From contig NC_080165.1 of the NCBI RefSeq assembly GCF_950295315.1, positions 9,911,723-9,975,722 on the forward strand: DNA of 64,000 nt, in the 5' to 3' direction. Every line of letters begins with the position of its first letter. The stretch's first letter is position 1. Positions 17,361 to 59,786 of the stretch are shown piece by piece. Made by a program: the position numbers and the translations under genes. Under the pieces are notes generated by a model that searched no databases, was not told where the DNA came from, and saw nothing but the letters and a program-made list of their open reading frames with translations. The stretch is from Erinaceus europaeus (lineage: Eukaryota > Chordata > Mammalia > Eulipotyphla > Erinaceidae).

Positions 17361-17672
17361 ATGTTATGCATCCAATTAAGTGCACAGAGCACTATATGGA
17401 AAGACTTCTGCTAGGATCCCAATTCAAGGCCCCTCTCTATACCTACACTGAGGACACTTCACAAGTGGTGAAAAAGGCCTGCAGGTGTCTTTCTCTCCCT
17501 CTCTATCTCCTCCTCCCCTCTCAGTTTCTTGCTGTCCTATCCAGTAAAGTAAACAAGAAAGAAATAAAGAAAGAGAGAGAGAAAGTAAGAAAAAAATGGC
17601 CACCAGGAGCAGTGGATTCACTGTGCTAGCACGGAGCTCCAGCGACAACCCTGGAGGAAAAATTTAAAAAAT
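17361..17672 (+). mobile_element. tRNA-derived SINE with 3' extension
   Basis: Decayed head, core, CT-rich tract, A/G-rich segment and CCTGGAGG 3' extension in the usual order. Confidence 0.7.
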
Positions 17673-26834: not shown

Positions 26835-26843
26835 CTTATCTAT

Positions 26844-28720
26844 TCTTCTTCTTCTAGCGTTTGCCCTTCTTCCGTAGCCAGTCAACAGCGTCAGGTTGAG
26901 CCTGATGTCAAGTTTCGAGACCCCCTTTGAATCTGGAGAGGTGGCAGTCATTGACTATGTGGGTCATAGTCTGTCTGGAGCCGCAGGGGCAGTTCGGGTC
27001 GTCTCTGGCTCCCCAGCGATGGAACATAGTGGCGCACTGGCCATGGCCTGTTCGATAGCGATGGAGGAAGGCCCAATCATAACGTGCTAGGTCAAAGCCG
27101 GGTTGACGCCTGCAGGGGTCTGTGATGAGGTGTTTGTTCTTTACCTCAGCTGACTGCCAACTCTGTTTCCAAGAGACTGGAACAGAGAAGTTCAGTGTAG
27201 GCGTAGGGGACCAGATTGGGTGACGAGACGTCAAGCGTTGGACAGGGTGGGCGAAGATATCCGCGTATATTGGCAGGTCCGGTCAAGCGTAGACGTGGGA
27301 AATGAACTTAGATGATGCAGCATCCCGACGAATATCTGGCGGGGCGATGTTGCTAAGAACTGGCAGCCATGGAACCGGGTTGGAATGGATGGTTCCAGAA
27401 ATGATCCTCATGGAGGAATATAATTTGGAATTGACCAAGTGGGAATGGGGGCTACGGAACCATCCTGGGGCACAGTATTCTGCAGTGGAATAGCATAATA
27501 CCAGAGAGGATGATCGTAGTGTGGAAGCGCTCGTGCCCCATGAGGAGCTGGCCAGTCTTGCAATGATGTTATTCCTCGCGCCCACCTTTGCGGCAGTTTT
27601 TATGAGATGTTTGTGAAATGACAGAGTGCGATCGAGAGTAACGCCAAGATAGACTGGCTGGGCTTCATGCCGGATTCTCGTATCACCAAGCTGCACATTA
27701 AGCTCACGCGAGGCCGAGGCATGGTGTAGATGGAAAACAGATGATACCGTTTTTGCAGTGCTAGGGACTAGTCGCCATTTTTTACAGTAATCAGATATCA
27801 GAGACATGTCTTTCATGAGTGATTCCTCAAGGATGTTGAACTTGGATGCCTGAGTTGTACAGCAGATGTCATCAGCGTAGATGAACTTCCTTGAAGAAGT
27901 TTCTGGGAGGTCATTGATGTAAATATTAAATAGCGTAGGAGCCAGAACAGAGCCCTGGGGGAGGCCACTTGAGACAAGTCTCCATCTGCTAGACTTGTCA
28001 CCCAGATGCACCCGGAATCTTCTGTTTTGGAGAAGAAACGATATAGTGTTGGCCACCCATGGAGGCAGGCATCTTGAGATCTTGACTAGGAGACCACAGT
28101 GCCAGACCGTGTCATAGGCTTCTGTAAGATCAACAAAGACAGCACCTGTCTTTAAATTCTTCTGGAATCCATTTTCAATGTAAGTTGAGAGGGCCAGGAC
28201 TTGTTCGCAGGTAGATCTTCCTGGGCGGAAACCAGCTTGGGTGGGTGATAGGAATTTCTCTGTAAGAGGAGAAATACGTGACAGAAGCAGCCTCTCAAGG
28301 AGTTTGTAACACACGGAGAGGAGAGAAATTGGTCTATAGCTGGCGGCCAGTGTTGGGTCTTTCTTTGGTTTCAAAACCGCTATTATCTTTGCTCGACGCC
28401 AAATTTTGGGCATAGATTCGGATTCCAAGATGTGGGACAGGAATGTAGTGAGCCACTTCTTTGCCGCGGGGCCCAGGTTAAGAATGAGTTCTGGGGTGAT
28501 GTTATCATAGCCAGCAGCTGTTCCCAGTTTAACCCTCTTCAAAGCGTCTTCCAGTTCAGACAGTGTAAAGGGAAAGAGTTTTGGAGATGGACAAGATAAA
28601 CGGAAGTGGGATGACCACTCATGGGAAATTTCTCTTTTCCAAACTGGGTCAATCTTAGCACGTCCAACTTGAGTTAGGTGACAAGTAGCAAATACCTACC
28701 TATCATCTGTCATCTATCAT
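26844..28720 (-). mobile_element. Vingi-like LINE, 5'-truncated copy
   Basis: A non-L1, non-LTR retrotransposon. It ends, on its own strand, in AGAAGAAGAAGAA instead of poly(A). The encoded reverse transcriptase is of the Jockey/Ingi kind. Among mammals this matches the Vingi clade (sister of Ingi, lacking RNase H) reported from hedgehogs. The 5' end is truncated between the endonuclease and RT regions. Nine-base repeats CTTATCTAT at 26835-26843 and 28721-28729 may be the target duplication, but the 5' one lies in a TATC-rich stretch, so the outer limit is uncertain by ~30 bp. Confidence 0.85.
26908..28686 (-). pseudogene. Vingi-like ORF: reverse transcriptase, one internal stop
   Basis: This is the RT half of a LINE polyprotein, which would copy element RNA into DNA at a nicked genomic site. 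The frame is open from about 28686 down to a TGA at 27283-27285. It then continues in the same frame to a TGA at 26908. RT signatures in order: RPISLLSVCYKLLER, AGFRPGRS, a DLTEAYDTVWH catalytic block, SGLPQGSVLAPTLFNIYIN, and YADD followed by ICC. A C-terminal Cys-rich segment reads CPCGSRQTMTHIV. The second copy (35510-36095) has an Arg codon where this one has the internal stop, so a CGA to TGA change is likely. No RNase H domain is visible, as expected for Vingi. The ATG-less start and missing endonuclease reflect 5' truncation. Non-functional as it stands. Confidence 0.85.
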
Positions 28721-35442: not shown

Positions 35443-36095
35443 TCTTCTTCTTCTTCTAGCGTTTGCCCTTCTTCCATAGCCAGTCAACAGCGTCAGGTTG
35501 AGCCTGATGTCAAGTTTCGAGACCTCCTTTGAATCTGGAGAGGTGGCAGTCGTTGACTATGTGGGTCATAGTCTGTCTGGAGCTGCAGGGGCAGTTTGGG
35601 TCGTCTCTGGCTCCCCAGCGATGGAACATAGCGGCGCACCGGCCATGGCCTGTTCGATAGCGATTGAGGAGGACCTGATCATAACGTGCCAGGTCAAAGC
35701 CGGGTGGACGCTCGCAGGGGTCTGTGATGAGGTGTTTGTTCTTTACCTCAGCTGACCGCCAGCTCTGTTTCCAAGAGACTGGAACAGAGAAGTTCATTGT
35801 AGGCGTAGGGGACCAGATTGGGTGATGAGACGTCAAGCGTTGGACAGGGTGGGCGAAGATATCCACGTATATTGGCAGGTCTGGTCGAGCGTAGACGTGG
35901 GAAATGAACTTAGATGATGCCGCATCCCGACGAATATCTGATGGGGTGATGTTGCTAAGAACTGGCAGCCATGGAACCGGGGTGGAATGGATGGTTCCAG
36001 AAATTATCCTCATGGAGGAATATAATTTGGAATCGACCAAGTGGACATGGGGGCTATGGAACCGTACTGGGGCATAGTATTCTGCAGTGGAATAG
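35443..36095 (-). mobile_element. Vingi-like LINE, short 5'-truncated copy
   Basis: Same 3' terminus as 26844 and highly similar to it throughout. It is 5'-truncated at 36095 and lies inside an inverted L1 3' UTR segment: the L1 sequence stops at 35442 and resumes at 36096 almost without loss, so the ends are well defined. Any target duplication is at most 2-3 bases. Confidence 0.88.
35510..36095 (-). pseudogene. Vingi-like ORF C-terminal fragment
   Basis: The frame enters at the truncation point and stays open to the TGA at 35510, encoding the region after the RT: a VLSNITPSDIRRDAAS block and a C-terminal CPCSSRQTMTHIV Cys-rich patch. It lacks the internal stop of the first copy. A further in-frame TAG lies 54 nt downstream at 35456-35458, just before the GAA-rich terminus, the same arrangement as in the first copy. 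With no promoter, endonuclease or RT core it is a dead fragment. Confidence 0.85.
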
Positions 36096-37957
36096 ATAAT
36101 CAGCTTAGAAGCCTATGTGACCTCTACATCCCTGTAGATCTAAGCTCACATTCTGTGATCATGAGTAGGAATATTCCAAGCTGCCCCAATATCGACCCAT
36201 CTTCCTCAGGTGTAGCATAGAGTATGTTGTCCAGCCTCCATTAAGAGGATAGAACATTCTCTCCCATTGTTAATCCAAGTTGACAGCAAGGTCCTACGGG
36301 GGCCCACAGAGGGGTCTGTTCTGTTGTTCCTGACAGAGATGACTGGTAATGATGGAGAGAGGGATTTATTCTAGGTCTATGCCAATCAAGTCTGTTTGGG
36401 AATCTTAGGACTCCTCGATTAGGGCCCCAGCTGATGGACTGTCCTAATAGTGACTAAAGAGTCATCATTAAAGGATGCCAGTCTCTTGCCCTTATCCAGC
36501 TTTTGCAGTTCTTTCTTTGCTAAAGTTAATTTCGGAGTGAGTGAGAGAACTGTAATAGGAAGTAGGTAGACACTATTTCATTATGAACTTGATACTGACT
36601 CACTACAGACTATTGTGTATTTTTGCTTTCAGGTATATATTTTGCCCTAATTTATGGATACATGTGAACATATGCTCTATCTAACAGGACCTGGTCTATA
36701 TATAGGTTTTGGAACTTTGTTAGCAAGTGAACCTCCTGGAATGGAATTAGAGAATATTATGAAAGGAAAGGTCTTACCTGAATAATGATGCTGAAGGGTT
36801 GACATTCCATGCCTGATGTCTCTGGACACAGTCTGAAGTGAAGCATGCTGAGGTTGTACTCATTGCATTGATCAGGTTGGGATCAGCAGATGCAATATTA
36901 TTTGGTATGACTTGAGAGAAGCATGCAGGAAAGTGAGCCCCACCCCAGTGGTTCCAGGACTGGGGGAAATATAGGCTCTATAGAGGAAGTGGGAGGTTCC
37001 TGCTGTCTTAGGGTTGAAGAAGACAATAGATAGTTATTGCTATAATTATTTGGCAATTAGGTTAACTGTGAAAAATCCCTTTGTTAGTATTTGCTGTATC
37101 ATACACACCATCACCATATTTTATTGGATTGACGGGGTTTACAGTCAACAATATTTATAGCCCTTTCCCATATTAGGGAGCTACTCTCTTCCATGATGCA
37201 GCTTTCTGGTCCTTTTTCCAGCCATGGCATCATCTCCCCAGACAATAACTTGGATCCACTGGCATATCAGATTTCAGGCTTAGGGGCAAAAAGAAAAAGG
37301 AAAAAAAAAAACTAATATAGCCATAGGCCCTTTGGAATTTAACTAAAATATGCCTACTATCTATCTACAAAATGGAGGACCCTCCAACACTTCATCTGAA
37401 CTATTCCATCCCTTAGGTCCATGATTGTTCAACAATTTGTTTGGATTTCTATGTTAACTCTCTTGTCAACCACCAGGTTCCAGGTGCTAGCATGATGCCA
37501 ACCAGACTTCCCTGCACAGACAACCCCACCAATGTGTCCTGGAGCTCCACTTCCCCAGAGCCCTTCCCCACTAGGGAAAGAGAGAGATAGGCTGGGAGTA
37601 TGGATCCACCTGTCAATGCCCATGTTCAGTGTGGGAAGCAATTACAGAAGCCAGACCTTCAACCATCTGCACCCTTTTGCACCCCACATTGACCTTGGGT
37701 CCATACTCCCAGAGGGTTAAAGAATAGGAAAGCTATCAGAGGAGGGGATGGAATACAGAGTTCTGGTGGGAGTTGTGTGAAGTTGTACCCCTCTCAACCT
37801 ATGGTTTTGTCAATGTTTCCTTTTTATAAATTAAAAAAAAAAAGGCTGTGGCTGTCAATACATATGTCCCTGTCACATGGCCAATACTGATGTTATGTGT
37901 TCTTGTCTCCTTGACCTGTTATTTATTACACATAACTCTTTCCTATGACTCTTAAAT

Positions 37958-46020: not shown

Positions 46021-46068
46021 ATCTTTCTCTTCCAACAGTCCAGAGATCACCTTGATCCAAACCTGAAT

Positions 46069-46264
46069 TCTTCTTCTAACGTTTGCCCTTCTTCCTTAGC
46101 CAGTCAACAGCGTCAGGTTGAAAGCTGTCAGGAGCTGCTTGTTGCTGGCTTTGAAAGTGACTGGGATCCATGTGGATTCAGTTGGCTAGGAAGTATCATC
46201 AGTTTCCCCAATGAATGGGTACTCACGGGATGCACCACGAGAAGGTCGATCCAATGCATCCCAG
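46069..46264 (-). mobile_element. Non-autonomous Vingi derivative
   Basis: About 195 bp. Its 3' ~55 bp equals the end of the Vingi-like LINE, including the GAA-rich terminus. The 5' ~140 bp is not in the two truncated LINE copies here and probably represents the LINE 5' end joined by internal deletion. Ten-base duplications AAACCTGAAT lie at 46059-46068 and 46265-46274. Short internally deleted Vingi families are known in hedgehog. The copy at 59341-59537 has the same structure. Confidence 0.88.
46193..46262 (-). ncRNA. Candidate HDV-like ribozyme, decayed copy
   Basis: P1 has seven perfect pairs (46256-46262 with 46227-46233, GGGATGC/GCATCCC). The L3-like loop and P4 hairpin are identical to the copy at 59469-59537. 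The P2 partner at 46193-46198 carries two substitutions that weaken the helix. Probably inactive, but it shows that the fold is a property of the family. Confidence 0.5.
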
Positions 46265-46350
46265 AAACCTGAATAGTAACAGCTGACTCAAAGGGCTACT
46301 GTCAAAGGGGACCACAGATGCCTTTTCCTGACTTATCTGAATATTTTCTT

Positions 46351-53661: not shown

Positions 53662-56166
53662 CTTTATGGGTCACAGCACAGGTCAGCCTTTCCGGGATCC
53701 ACACAGGCGTCTGCTGATTCTGTGGAAAAACACAGACAGAGCTTCGCACCCATCTAAGAACTGGGTCCAGGCTGGCCCAGTGGCTGGTTAAAGGATCTTT
53801 CCACATGACCATTTCTTTAAGGCCAGAGTTGGCAGTGGAGTGACGATCTGCTGCTGACTTCCCGTGCTCATCCAGGGATAGAAAATTAAGAGTAAAGAGA
53901 GCAATATGCAGCTTCTCTTTGGGGGAGCGAAATGTCTCCCCTATAACCCCCTTTTGTTTGTATAAGCAATTTTTTAAGGTGAGATGAGCATGTTCAATGA
54001 CTCCTTGTCCTCGAGGATTATAGGGGATGCCCGTGGTGAGCAATATCTCAAAGGCTTGCAGGAATTCATAAGAGGCTTTAGAAGTATAAGCATGTCCATT
54101 GTCAGTTTTATACTGTTTTGGGGTCCCCCAGGCAGCGAATGCCTGAAGGCAGTGAGCGAAAACATCAGAAACCTTTTCTCCTGCATGAGAAGAGGCAAAA
54201 ATAACACCAGAGAACAGGTCAATAGACACATGGATATATTGTAAGCGGCCGAAGGAGGGAAAGTGGGTAATATACACCTGCCACAGATGATTAGGTTGGA
54301 GGCCCTTAGGGTTGACACCCAAAGAGGGCTGGGGCAAAAAAGGGACACAATGGGTGCAGGATTTAACAATATGCCATGTGATTTGTCTGGTAATATTGAA
54401 TTTTCGGCAGAGGGTGTTGGCATTGACATGCCAGCGGCTGTGAAAGGAAGCTGCCCATTCCTGAGCGGGGCAAATGAGATCAAATTTGGTAGCACTATCC
54501 GCAAGGGCATTACCTTCTGCTATAGGGCCAGGAAGATTAGAATGAGCCCTAACGTGTCCCACAAAGAAGGGCTCTCTGCGGCGAGTGATGATCTCCTATA
54601 AGGCAAGCAAATCCCGATGGATAGGAGAGGTGACCGCAATGGTAGCAGCGGTCTCCAGCATGCGGACAGCATTGACAACATACTGGCTGTCATAGACAAG
54701 ATTAAATGGCTCAGGAAAAAGGCGGAAGGCCAGCAGGACTGCCGCAAGCTCTACCCTTTGGGGGGCGGAAGCGGGTATGACTACTGGATAAACCTGTCCT
54801 GCCGAGACTATGGCTCCCGTTCCATTCTTGGAGCCGTCAGTGAAAACAGTGCGGACGGCTGGCAGGGGCTGCAGTTTTGTGACTCTAGGGAAAATGATAG
54901 GGACTGAGTGGCAAAATTGGAGCCATGGGTGAGGTGGATAGTGGTTATCAAAGCGCAAGCTATGGAGGCATGCCAAGAGTGACCAGTCATCATTGAAGTG
55001 TACGAGGTGCATGATCTGTTCCTTAGTATAAGGGGTTACACAAAGTGTCGGTGCAGCGCCAAAGGCTGACAGGGCCGCACGAATGGCTTTATTAATAAGG
55101 GTAGCAACGGCCGTAGGGTAGTCAGTGATAATCTTATTGGGGGCAGAAGGCAGGTAGACCCAGGTTAAGGGTCCTCCCTGCCAAAGAACAGCCGAGGGAC
55201 AGCTCTTTTCAGGAAGGACCATAACAGCAAGAGGCTGGGAGGGATCACAGCAGCTGGCCCGTCCCTCTGATAGACGGCACTCCACCAGGGTCAAGGCTGG
55301 AGTCAGCCGCCTAGGTGAAGCCAGCTGTGGATCTCCTTTAAGGATATCAAAAAGTGGCTGTAATTCTTGAGTGGTAAGCTTTAAGTAAGGCTGGACCCAA
55401 TTTATGTTCCCCAAGAGTTGTTGAAAGTCATTGAGTGTATTTAAATTGTCAGTCCTAATGGTGAGCTTTAAGGGGTGCACAGACACTGTGTCAATCCTAT
55501 TGCCTAAGTATTCCACAGAGTCAGTCTTTTGGACCTTTTCGGGGGCGATATCAAGGCCCCAGGAAAGTAGCGCCCACGTCACATGGACCAGGGCCTTTTC
55601 TAGGTCATTAAGAGAGGCTGCACACAGAAGAATATCATCCATGTAGTGGGAAAATAAAACCAGAGGGAAAGCAGATCTACTAGAGCGAATTGCCCGATCA
55701 ACATAAAGTTGACAAAGGGTAGGACTATTCATCATGCCTTGAGGGAGGACCACCCATTCATATCACTGATCAGGTTGCATGTGGTTAAGGGCAGGTAAGG
55801 TAAAGGCGAACCTAGCACAATCATCAGGGTGAAGAGGAATGGAATAAAAACAATCTTTGATATCTAAAGCTACCACGGGCCAAGCTTTGGGTAAGGCGGT
55901 TAACAATGGCAGCCCCAGTTGCACTGGACCTAGAGGAGACATCTGAGCATTAATCTCTTGGAGGTCATGTAAGAGCCTCCATTTGCCTGATTTCTTTTTA
56001 ATGACAGATAGGGGTGTTCCACGGTGAAGTGGAGGGTCTAACGTGTCCTGCAAGCAGCTGATCTTTAACCAGGGCATGTGCTGCGTTCAGCTTCTCCTTT
56101 GTTAAGGGCCACTGAGCCACCCACTTAGGAGCACCAGAGATCCAGCGGATTCAGTGGCCCTGGGTG
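53543..56166 (-). pseudogene. pol: Retroviral pol: RT, RNase H and integrase, with stops
   Basis: Codes for the enzymes that copy and integrate the provirus. The main frame (56077 to 53543) is interrupted by TGA at 55763-55765, inside the RT fingers/palm, and TAG at 54596-54598, inside RNase H. The reading frame continues unchanged after both. RT shows [33 protein letters not shown] and the YMDD box (55634-55645). RNase H shows TDGS, an E in VELAA, and DSQY. Integrase follows with an HHCC zinc motif (...CTHC), VSIDLFSG, KTDNGHAY and a conserved E in GVIEHAH. The N-terminal part, WVAQWPLTKEKL at about 56110-56140, is in a different frame with a shift near 56010-56020. It also carries a stop upstream. 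Inactive as found. Confidence 0.92.
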
Positions 56167-59258: not shown

Positions 59259-59340
59259 CTTGTCGCTGTCGGCCCGCAACAACGACATGGACACCAGAGT
59301 CTTCTTCCTCAATTCCCTTTATTTCCTTCTTATGGCCACC

Positions 59341-59537
59341 TTCTTCTTCTTCTAGCGTTTGCTCTTCTTCCGTAGCCAGTCAACAGCATCAGGTTGAAAG
59401 CTGTCAGGAGCTGCTTGTTGCTGGCTTTGAAAGTGACTGGGATCCATGTGGATTCAGTCGGCTAGGAAGGATCGTCAGTTTCCCCAATGAATGGGTACTC
59501 ACGGGATGCACCACGAGAAGGTCGATCCAGTGCATCC
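59341..59537 (-). mobile_element. Non-autonomous Vingi derivative inside the 5' LTR
   Basis: 197 bp, flanked by perfect 10-base duplications TATGGCCACC at 59331-59340 and 59538-59547. The other LTR keeps the empty site, so the ends are exact. The 3' ~55 bp equals the terminus of the Vingi-like LINE: it reads as a QPDAVDWLRKK peptide followed by TAG, then the GAA-rich end. The 5' ~140 bp matches the copy at 46069-46264. It encodes nothing itself and would need Vingi proteins in trans. Same orientation as the provirus. Confidence 0.93.
59469..59537 (-). ncRNA. Candidate HDV-like self-cleaving ribozyme at the element 5' end
   Basis: The 69 nt from the exact 5' boundary can form the nested double pseudoknot of HDV-like ribozymes. 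P1: GGATGC (59532-59537) with GCATCC (59504-59509). P2: GGATCG (59523-59528) with CGATCC (59469-59474). P3: ACC/GGT (59520-59522 with 59510-59512), enclosing loop TTCTCGT, which resembles the HDV L3 loop. P4: CCCA/TGGG hairpin at 59483-59495. J4/2: CTGA at 59475-59478, supplying the expected catalytic C. All elements come in the correct order. The relatives of Vingi (Ingi/L1Tc) carry such ribozymes at their 5' ends. Pairing was done by eye; activity is not shown. Confidence 0.6.
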
Positions 59538-59786
59538 TATGGCCACCTTAAGTACCTTTCACTGTTACATAGTCAGCCAATGGGCATTAAGCAAGCATAC
59601 AGCATTCATAGATCATGCAGCCTTCTACCAATCATAAAACAGTTCACGTGTACAGCACGCAGTCTGTTCAGTTGGATCGTCCAACTTCAGCAAAGTTGTT
59701 TACCACTTTACTGGTTTAGCCACCACGTGGCCGGCACCATCTTAGGGGTGTGATGTTCAGTGTCATTATGGCTCCCGACAATTCCC

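Follow-up and report, generated by a model that had tools for sequence, protein, structure and literature searches.

HDV-like ribozymes on LINEs have so far been described, in those parts of the literature that were consulted, from R2 and related animal elements and from trypanosomes. In trypanosomatids, an HDV-like fold named Pr77 starts the LINE of the L1Tc/ingi clade as well as its short partners NARTc, RIME, and SIDER (consulted sections of PMC4035085). The R2 ribozymes have a P1 of 6–7 bp, a P2 of at least 5 bp, and a variable P4, and the R2 SIDEs combine the 5′ ribozyme with the 3′ end of the element (excerpts of PMC3774820 and PMC3414825); the term SIDE is used here as in the excerpt of PMC3414825. 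Among mammals, the CPEB3 ribozyme is likewise HDV-like and belongs to a single gene (excerpt of PMC4908430).

We analyzed 64,000 nucleotides of contig NC_080165.1 of the hedgehog Erinaceus europaeus, referred to as the window, which contains two SIDE copies (A and B) and two truncated copies of the corresponding LINE (Table 1). As with Pr77, an HDV-like fold starts both the LINE and its short partner, whereas the host is an animal and the core is of the R2/HDV type. The R2 features named above recur in the element together with a near-identical core, the P3-L3-P3′ segment ACCTTCTCGTGGT being one base off the R2 ribozyme primer core ACCTCCTCGTGGT (excerpt of PMC3414825). In contrast to R2, the element lies at varied targets with target duplications, is not confined to rDNA, and has a P1 derived entirely from the element. 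It shares the helix order, L3, and the CNRA motif with the HDV ribozyme (RF00094), but its P4 is short and its P1.1 appears weaker by eye. Unlike CPEB3, it constitutes a mobile family.

The LINE carries reverse transcriptase and endonuclease-type domains. It is most likely the Vingi of the hedgehog, an assignment based on the initial annotation, on published reports of hedgehog Vingi elements, and on the anatomy of the element. The N in the family name Vingi-1N3_EE presumably stands for non-autonomous. According to Table 2 in the consulted part of PMC3183009, this is the largest hedgehog family with less than 1% divergence (311 copies), and it resembles our SIDE in being a young hedgehog family. 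Vingi elements have been reported from hedgehogs and reptiles (excerpt of PMC5753468). In the literature searched, three papers mention both Vingi and a ribozyme, and judged by title all three concern alpha-synuclein. The term HDV-like ribozyme together with hedgehog was not found in the literature searched, and the text of a paper on hedgehog LINEs and SINEs (PMC12026660) contains neither "ribozyme" nor "Vingi".

An HDV-like fold at the start of the short element

Read on the minus strand, copy A contains P1, J1/2, P2, P3, L3, P3′, P1′, P4, J4/2 with the sequence CUGA, and P2′ in this order. The initial annotation had recognized P1, P2, P3, P4, and a CTGA J4/2 in the order of the HDV double pseudoknot, and every part was found at its assigned position. 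The fold had also been said to begin directly after the target duplication, which is the case in copy A, where the two adjoin without a gap. In this copy, an A stands where the family has its first G. The family itself starts with GGGATGC, pairing with GCATCCC, one base upstream of the fold start in copy A. Since the duplications place the element start at GGGATGC, P1 comprises 7 bp in the family (GGGAUGC/GCAUCCC), with the first G as the modal 5′ end of the element, and the 6 bp originally proposed hold for copy A but not for the family. The tail of copy A is (GAA)n, and its border with the duplication is ambiguous owing to common bases. Copy B retains G1 (position 46262), has a decayed P2 with one G-U pair and one mismatch, and is flanked by a 9-base duplication (46265–46273 and 46059–46067) with an extra CT ahead of G1.

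Table 1. Coordinates of the elements, duplications, and parts of the predicted ribozyme fold in the window
Feature	Position	Strand	Remark
LINE copy without 5′ region	26843..28695	minus	last 54 nt common with SIDE; upstream border provisional
Second 5′-truncated LINE copy	35445..36100	minus	same 3′ end
SIDE copy B	46068..46262	minus	95.9% identity to copy A over 194 nt
SIDE copy A, 195 nt	59343..59537	minus	LINE nt 2-141 plus the LINE's last 54 nt
3′ target-site duplication, 12 bases	59331..59342	minus	same as AAGGTGGCCATA
5′ target-site duplication, 12 bases	59538..59549	minus	AAGGTGGCCATA (minus-strand reading)
HDV-like ribozyme fold, family nt 2-70	59469..59537	minus	G1 missing in copy A
P1 5′ strand	59532..59537	minus	GGATGC (GGGATGC in family)
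J1/2	59529..59531	minus	ACT
P2 5′ strand	59523..59528	minus	GGATCG
P3 5′ strand	59520..59522	minus	ACC
L3	59513..59519	minus	TTCTCGT (RNA UUCUCGU)
P3 3′ strand	59510..59512	minus	GGT
P1 3′ strand	59503..59509	minus	GCATCCC
P4 hairpin	59483..59495	minus	CCCA/TGGG
J4/2	59475..59478	minus	CTGA (CNRA), presumed catalytic C
P2 3′ strand	59469..59474	minus	CGATCC

The nested order P1-P2-P3-P4 of the double pseudoknot was found in the copies by both descriptor and alignment. The HDV-ribozyme descriptor, which the initial annotation had named as a check on this region, was run with L3 and CNRA constraints and gave one match in the window, at position 59537 in copy A, and 0 matches in 150 dinucleotide shuffles searched on both strands. 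Copy B escaped the descriptor because of its decayed P2. Structure alone, with no L3 constraint, matched at 2 sites in the window and gave 11 matches in 20 shuffles. Applied to 253,691 bases from genomic loci, it yielded 82 matches, 80 of them in the SIDE/LINE family and 2 at one other site. A merely accidental resemblance to the HDV ribozyme, in favor of which the Rfam scores under the curated threshold can be cited, is scarcely plausible beside the single other site in these loci, and it was rejected because the shuffles were empty and because, in dozens of insertions, the fold starts where the element does. Judged from its sequence, the 5′ fold of the element is very probably an HDV-like ribozyme.

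Two features of the fold count against the ribozyme reading. For P1.1, inspection by eye suggested one clear C-G pair, followed by a U-U position. The best non-pseudoknotted fold has −26.7 kcal/mol, with pairings of nt 8–10 and 11–13 that compete with P2 and P3, and P1, P3, and P4 alone score −19.4, with P2 left out of the score.

The Rfam scan of the window at gathering thresholds gave no match, and RF00094 was the only ribozyme family that Rfam listed for SIDE and LINE copies. The covariance-model search, also named as a check, did match both window copies with RF00094, albeit weakly and below threshold: no copy reached the curated 50 bits, with scores ranging from 20.5 to 26.8 bits, under a model that contains no P2, a pseudoknotted helix. 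Given 301 bases, copy A scored 20.5 bits (E 0.7, with lower E-values for two other families among the 5 matches) and was no longer listed when the whole window was scanned at E ≤ 10, and copy B scored 26.8 bits (E 0.043 over 301 bases as the top match, E 9.2 over the window). At the same E-value limit, 3 of 13 genomic loci were matched with 25.3–26.4 bits, and the other 10 include truncated copies, one copy with a U-U mismatch in P1, and most LINE copies; this small share slightly weakens the case for a ribozyme.

Two further minus-strand regions of the window drew Rfam hits. Positions 55800–56083 matched RSV_RNA, a retroviral 3′ UTR stability element, with 49.8 bits (E 3e-11; threshold 105), and are possibly part of an endogenous retrovirus. 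Weak overlapping matches of unrelated microRNA-precursor models (mir-4716, MIR1219, MIR5298, mir-320, and others) at 17482–17591 perhaps reflect an inverted repeat.

Family anatomy and the exact 5′ end

The longer LINE copy in the window has a 470-aa open stretch (27283–28695) with an RVT_1 match (E 1.4e-33) and the motif FIYADD. Of 52,171 first-look candidates for the reverse transcriptase, 90 matches were scored, and the ten long LINEs among them with listed frames of at least 940 aa (4 stop-free, 6 with one internal stop) were followed upstream. The 5′ region of the SIDE was present in 9 of the 10, where the matches begin at G1 in five copies and at nt 3, 6, 7, and 57 in the rest. The expectation that a full-length LINE would carry the same fold at its 5′ end was borne out by these five long copies, which start at the same base. 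The first ATG of the LINE ORF lies at nt 92 in 6 of the 9, right behind the ribozyme fold, and the endonuclease domain PF03372 was matched past the ORF start in two of the long copies (L075, 5.7e-06; L079, 4.7e-04, the latter below the cut-off). Because the long LINEs carry the same 5′ region, the SIDE could be defined as LINE nt 1–141 plus the last 54 nt, that is, the LINE 5′ end with the ribozyme fold and the LINE 3′ end, with target duplications on both sides. Of the first 30 copies with an exact core, 28 can be aligned as far as the end of the 54-nt tail, and 2 represent a shorter variant.

A conventional SINE, transcribed by Pol III from a fixed start, would also be short and numerous with a fixed 5′ end, and an A-box-like stretch (10/11) does lie at nt 53 of the SIDE. 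This origin is nevertheless very unlikely and was rejected, since the B box is unconvincing (best 7/11), both ends of the element derive from the LINE, and Rfam matches of the tRNA, 5S, and 7SL families are absent in both window copies.

The abundance of the family was assessed over the whole assembly (2.72 Gb) with a core pattern of 22 bases, from L3 to J1.1/4, allowing at most 2 mismatches. The pattern gave 10,544 matches (5,195 + 5,349), compared with 0 + 1 for the reversed control. When the first 120 nt were compared with the genome, 22 of 40 scored matches, drawn from 352 first-look candidates, were 100% identical over the 120 nt, copy A included, which points to a young family.

Related reverse transcriptases in public contigs amounted to 2,295 proteins among 7,984 scored. 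Among the relatives listed (120 of the 2,295), P0001–P0043 are 53–66% identical to the LINE (P0001: 94%), and P0038 is named Synaphobranchus kaupii. No relatives of the LINE were found with their DNA in viral contigs. Bacterial genome contigs contained one distant LINE whose reverse transcriptase has 30% identity (L085, VFKM01000197.1, from a Flavobacteriales metagenome bin), which is probably a eukaryotic contaminant and in which the ribozyme descriptor found no match.

Insertion junctions were sampled in 100 copies, comprising the 30 nearest to copy A and 70 exact-core copies consecutive along one contig. A recognizable target duplication was present in 70 copies. It adjoins G1 in 34 of them and has 1–3 G's in common with an intact start in 14; two more show an overlap of 5 or 8 bases with an intact start, and in 6, copy A among these, the duplication extends into a changed start. 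The remaining 14 have 1–6 extra bases between the duplication and G1. The junctions are concentrated at the position where cleavage is predicted. For R2, the consulted part of Eickbush et al. (PMC3774820) describes variable junctions with added bases where cleavage coincides with the element end.

The extra bases were T, C, AT, T, T, TT, T, CC, T, TTTAGT, TT, T, T, and T. They consist of T alone in 10 of the 14 junctions (L012, L037, L038, L051, L086, L101, L114, L115, L120, L125), and a G next to G1 occurs in none of the 14. Copying of a cap would put a G at the junction, as considered in work on L1, and addition of A at the cDNA end would give a T. The T-only extras and the lack of G beside G1 may possibly record run-off addition on an uncapped template.

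Variation within the fold

The alignment comprised 68 copies, 60 short and 8 LINE, as 2 of the 10 LINE stretches had no usable core; 30 of the 60 short copies are the genome's best matches to copy A, and the sample leans to intact copies. The core residues, which we take to be the conserved L3 positions and the catalytic C in the CNRA of J4/2, are intact in 65 of the 68, and all 16 P1/P2/P3 pairs plus the core are intact in 40. Shared variants were defined by a minor base in at least 4 copies, with nt 1–3 excluded because truncated copies have flank bases there. Within the 70 nt, such variants occur at nt 9 (the second base of J1/2, which is T in copy B and in 35 of the 68 aligned copies), nt 23 (L3, U/C), nt 35, which turns pair 2-35 from G-C into G-U, and nt 4, where A is replaced by T. 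The changes common to long and short elements mostly fit the HDV fold (nt 9, nt 23, and pair 2-35).

The nt 4 position requires separate consideration. An exact pattern for the variant GGGTTGC...GCATCCC, with a U-U mismatch in P1 pair 4-33, is present in 310 copies (for example L046, L058, L063, L067, L117, and L121), and the 5′ ends of these copies are just as precise, with the duplication adjoining G1 in 5 of 9 sampled. The variant thereby offers a natural gauge of how much decay P1 can undergo. In another HDV-like ribozyme, a U-U mismatch in P1 is the postulated cause of cleavage at raised Mg2+ only (consulted part of PMC3774820). No other observation weighs as heavily against a simple ribozyme story as the U-U variant; the mismatch may be tolerated, or the lineage carrying it may have depended on different starts.

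Compensatory changes in the helices, which the initial annotation had named as a check, did not appear at P1 pair 4-33: of 24 copies altered at nt 33, 22 are uncompensated and 2 compensated. The two were rejected as support, since they fit the background share of GGGTTGC (9 of 100 sampled). Missing covariation at this pair is expected because copies are neutral after insertion. A genome-wide pattern for a diverged P1 behind the same core gave 2 matches against 1 in the control, which was taken as chance. The long LINE L078 starts with AAGATGC and has GCATCTT, so that AA...TT replaces GG...CC at P1 pairs 1-2; it was not counted as covariation, because flank bases together with a CpG change can account for it.

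These data also bear on the idea that transcription begins at G1 under an internal Pol II promoter and that the fold is an inactive inherited ribozyme or has another role, for example in translation. The 310 U-U copies, with the exact 5′ end kept in those sampled, would agree with such a promoter; the same 77 nt of L1Tc act as promoter and ribozyme (consulted section of PMC4035085), and activity cannot be read from sequence. Retention of the core residues in nearly all aligned copies argues against it. So does the lack of G beside G1, insofar as cap copying would be expected to favor G. We consider the promoter explanation unlikely. The initial proposal that the RNA releases its own 5′ end is favored by the fold on the LINEs, the more than 10,000 cores, and the clustering of junctions, but it gained nothing from covariation at the one P1 pair.

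A candidate self-cleaving 5′ end in the LINE life cycle

We consider it likely that the first 70 nt of the LINE and of its internally deleted derivatives form an HDV-like self-cleaving ribozyme that releases the element RNA. The ribozymes of R2 (PMC3774820) and of L1Tc/ingi elements (PMC4035085) provide the precedents, although in trypanosomatids certain sequences that fold adequately showed no activity in vitro (consulted section of PMC4035085). A copy would be transcribed from any upstream promoter, by read-through or as its own transcript, and the RNA would fold into the double pseudoknot and cleave immediately upstream of G1, the first base of P1. The RNA set free in this way would begin at the first base of the element with a 5′-OH and would be uncapped. 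The LINE RNA would be translated from the ORF at nt 92, and the LINE protein would insert LINE or SIDE RNA by target-primed reverse transcription, after which the duplication would sit against G1.

More broadly, HDV-like ribozymes that are potentially active may lie scattered by the thousand through a mammalian genome, spread by a promoterless LINE/SIDE pair that rides host transcripts and excises itself uncapped, a picture to which we give an even chance of being correct. If it is true, the extra bases at the junctions would be a record of this process, and host transcripts may be cut by copies lying in sense orientation within genes. The Ingi-type ribozyme would gain a vertebrate relative, provided that the clade assignment is right. 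A young, very abundant mammalian family would open the life cycle of ribozyme-bearing LINEs to tests in mammalian cells, including the questions of how uncapped LINE RNA is translated, how copying reaches the exact end, and whether self-cutting sequences by the thousand within or close to genes influence host transcripts.
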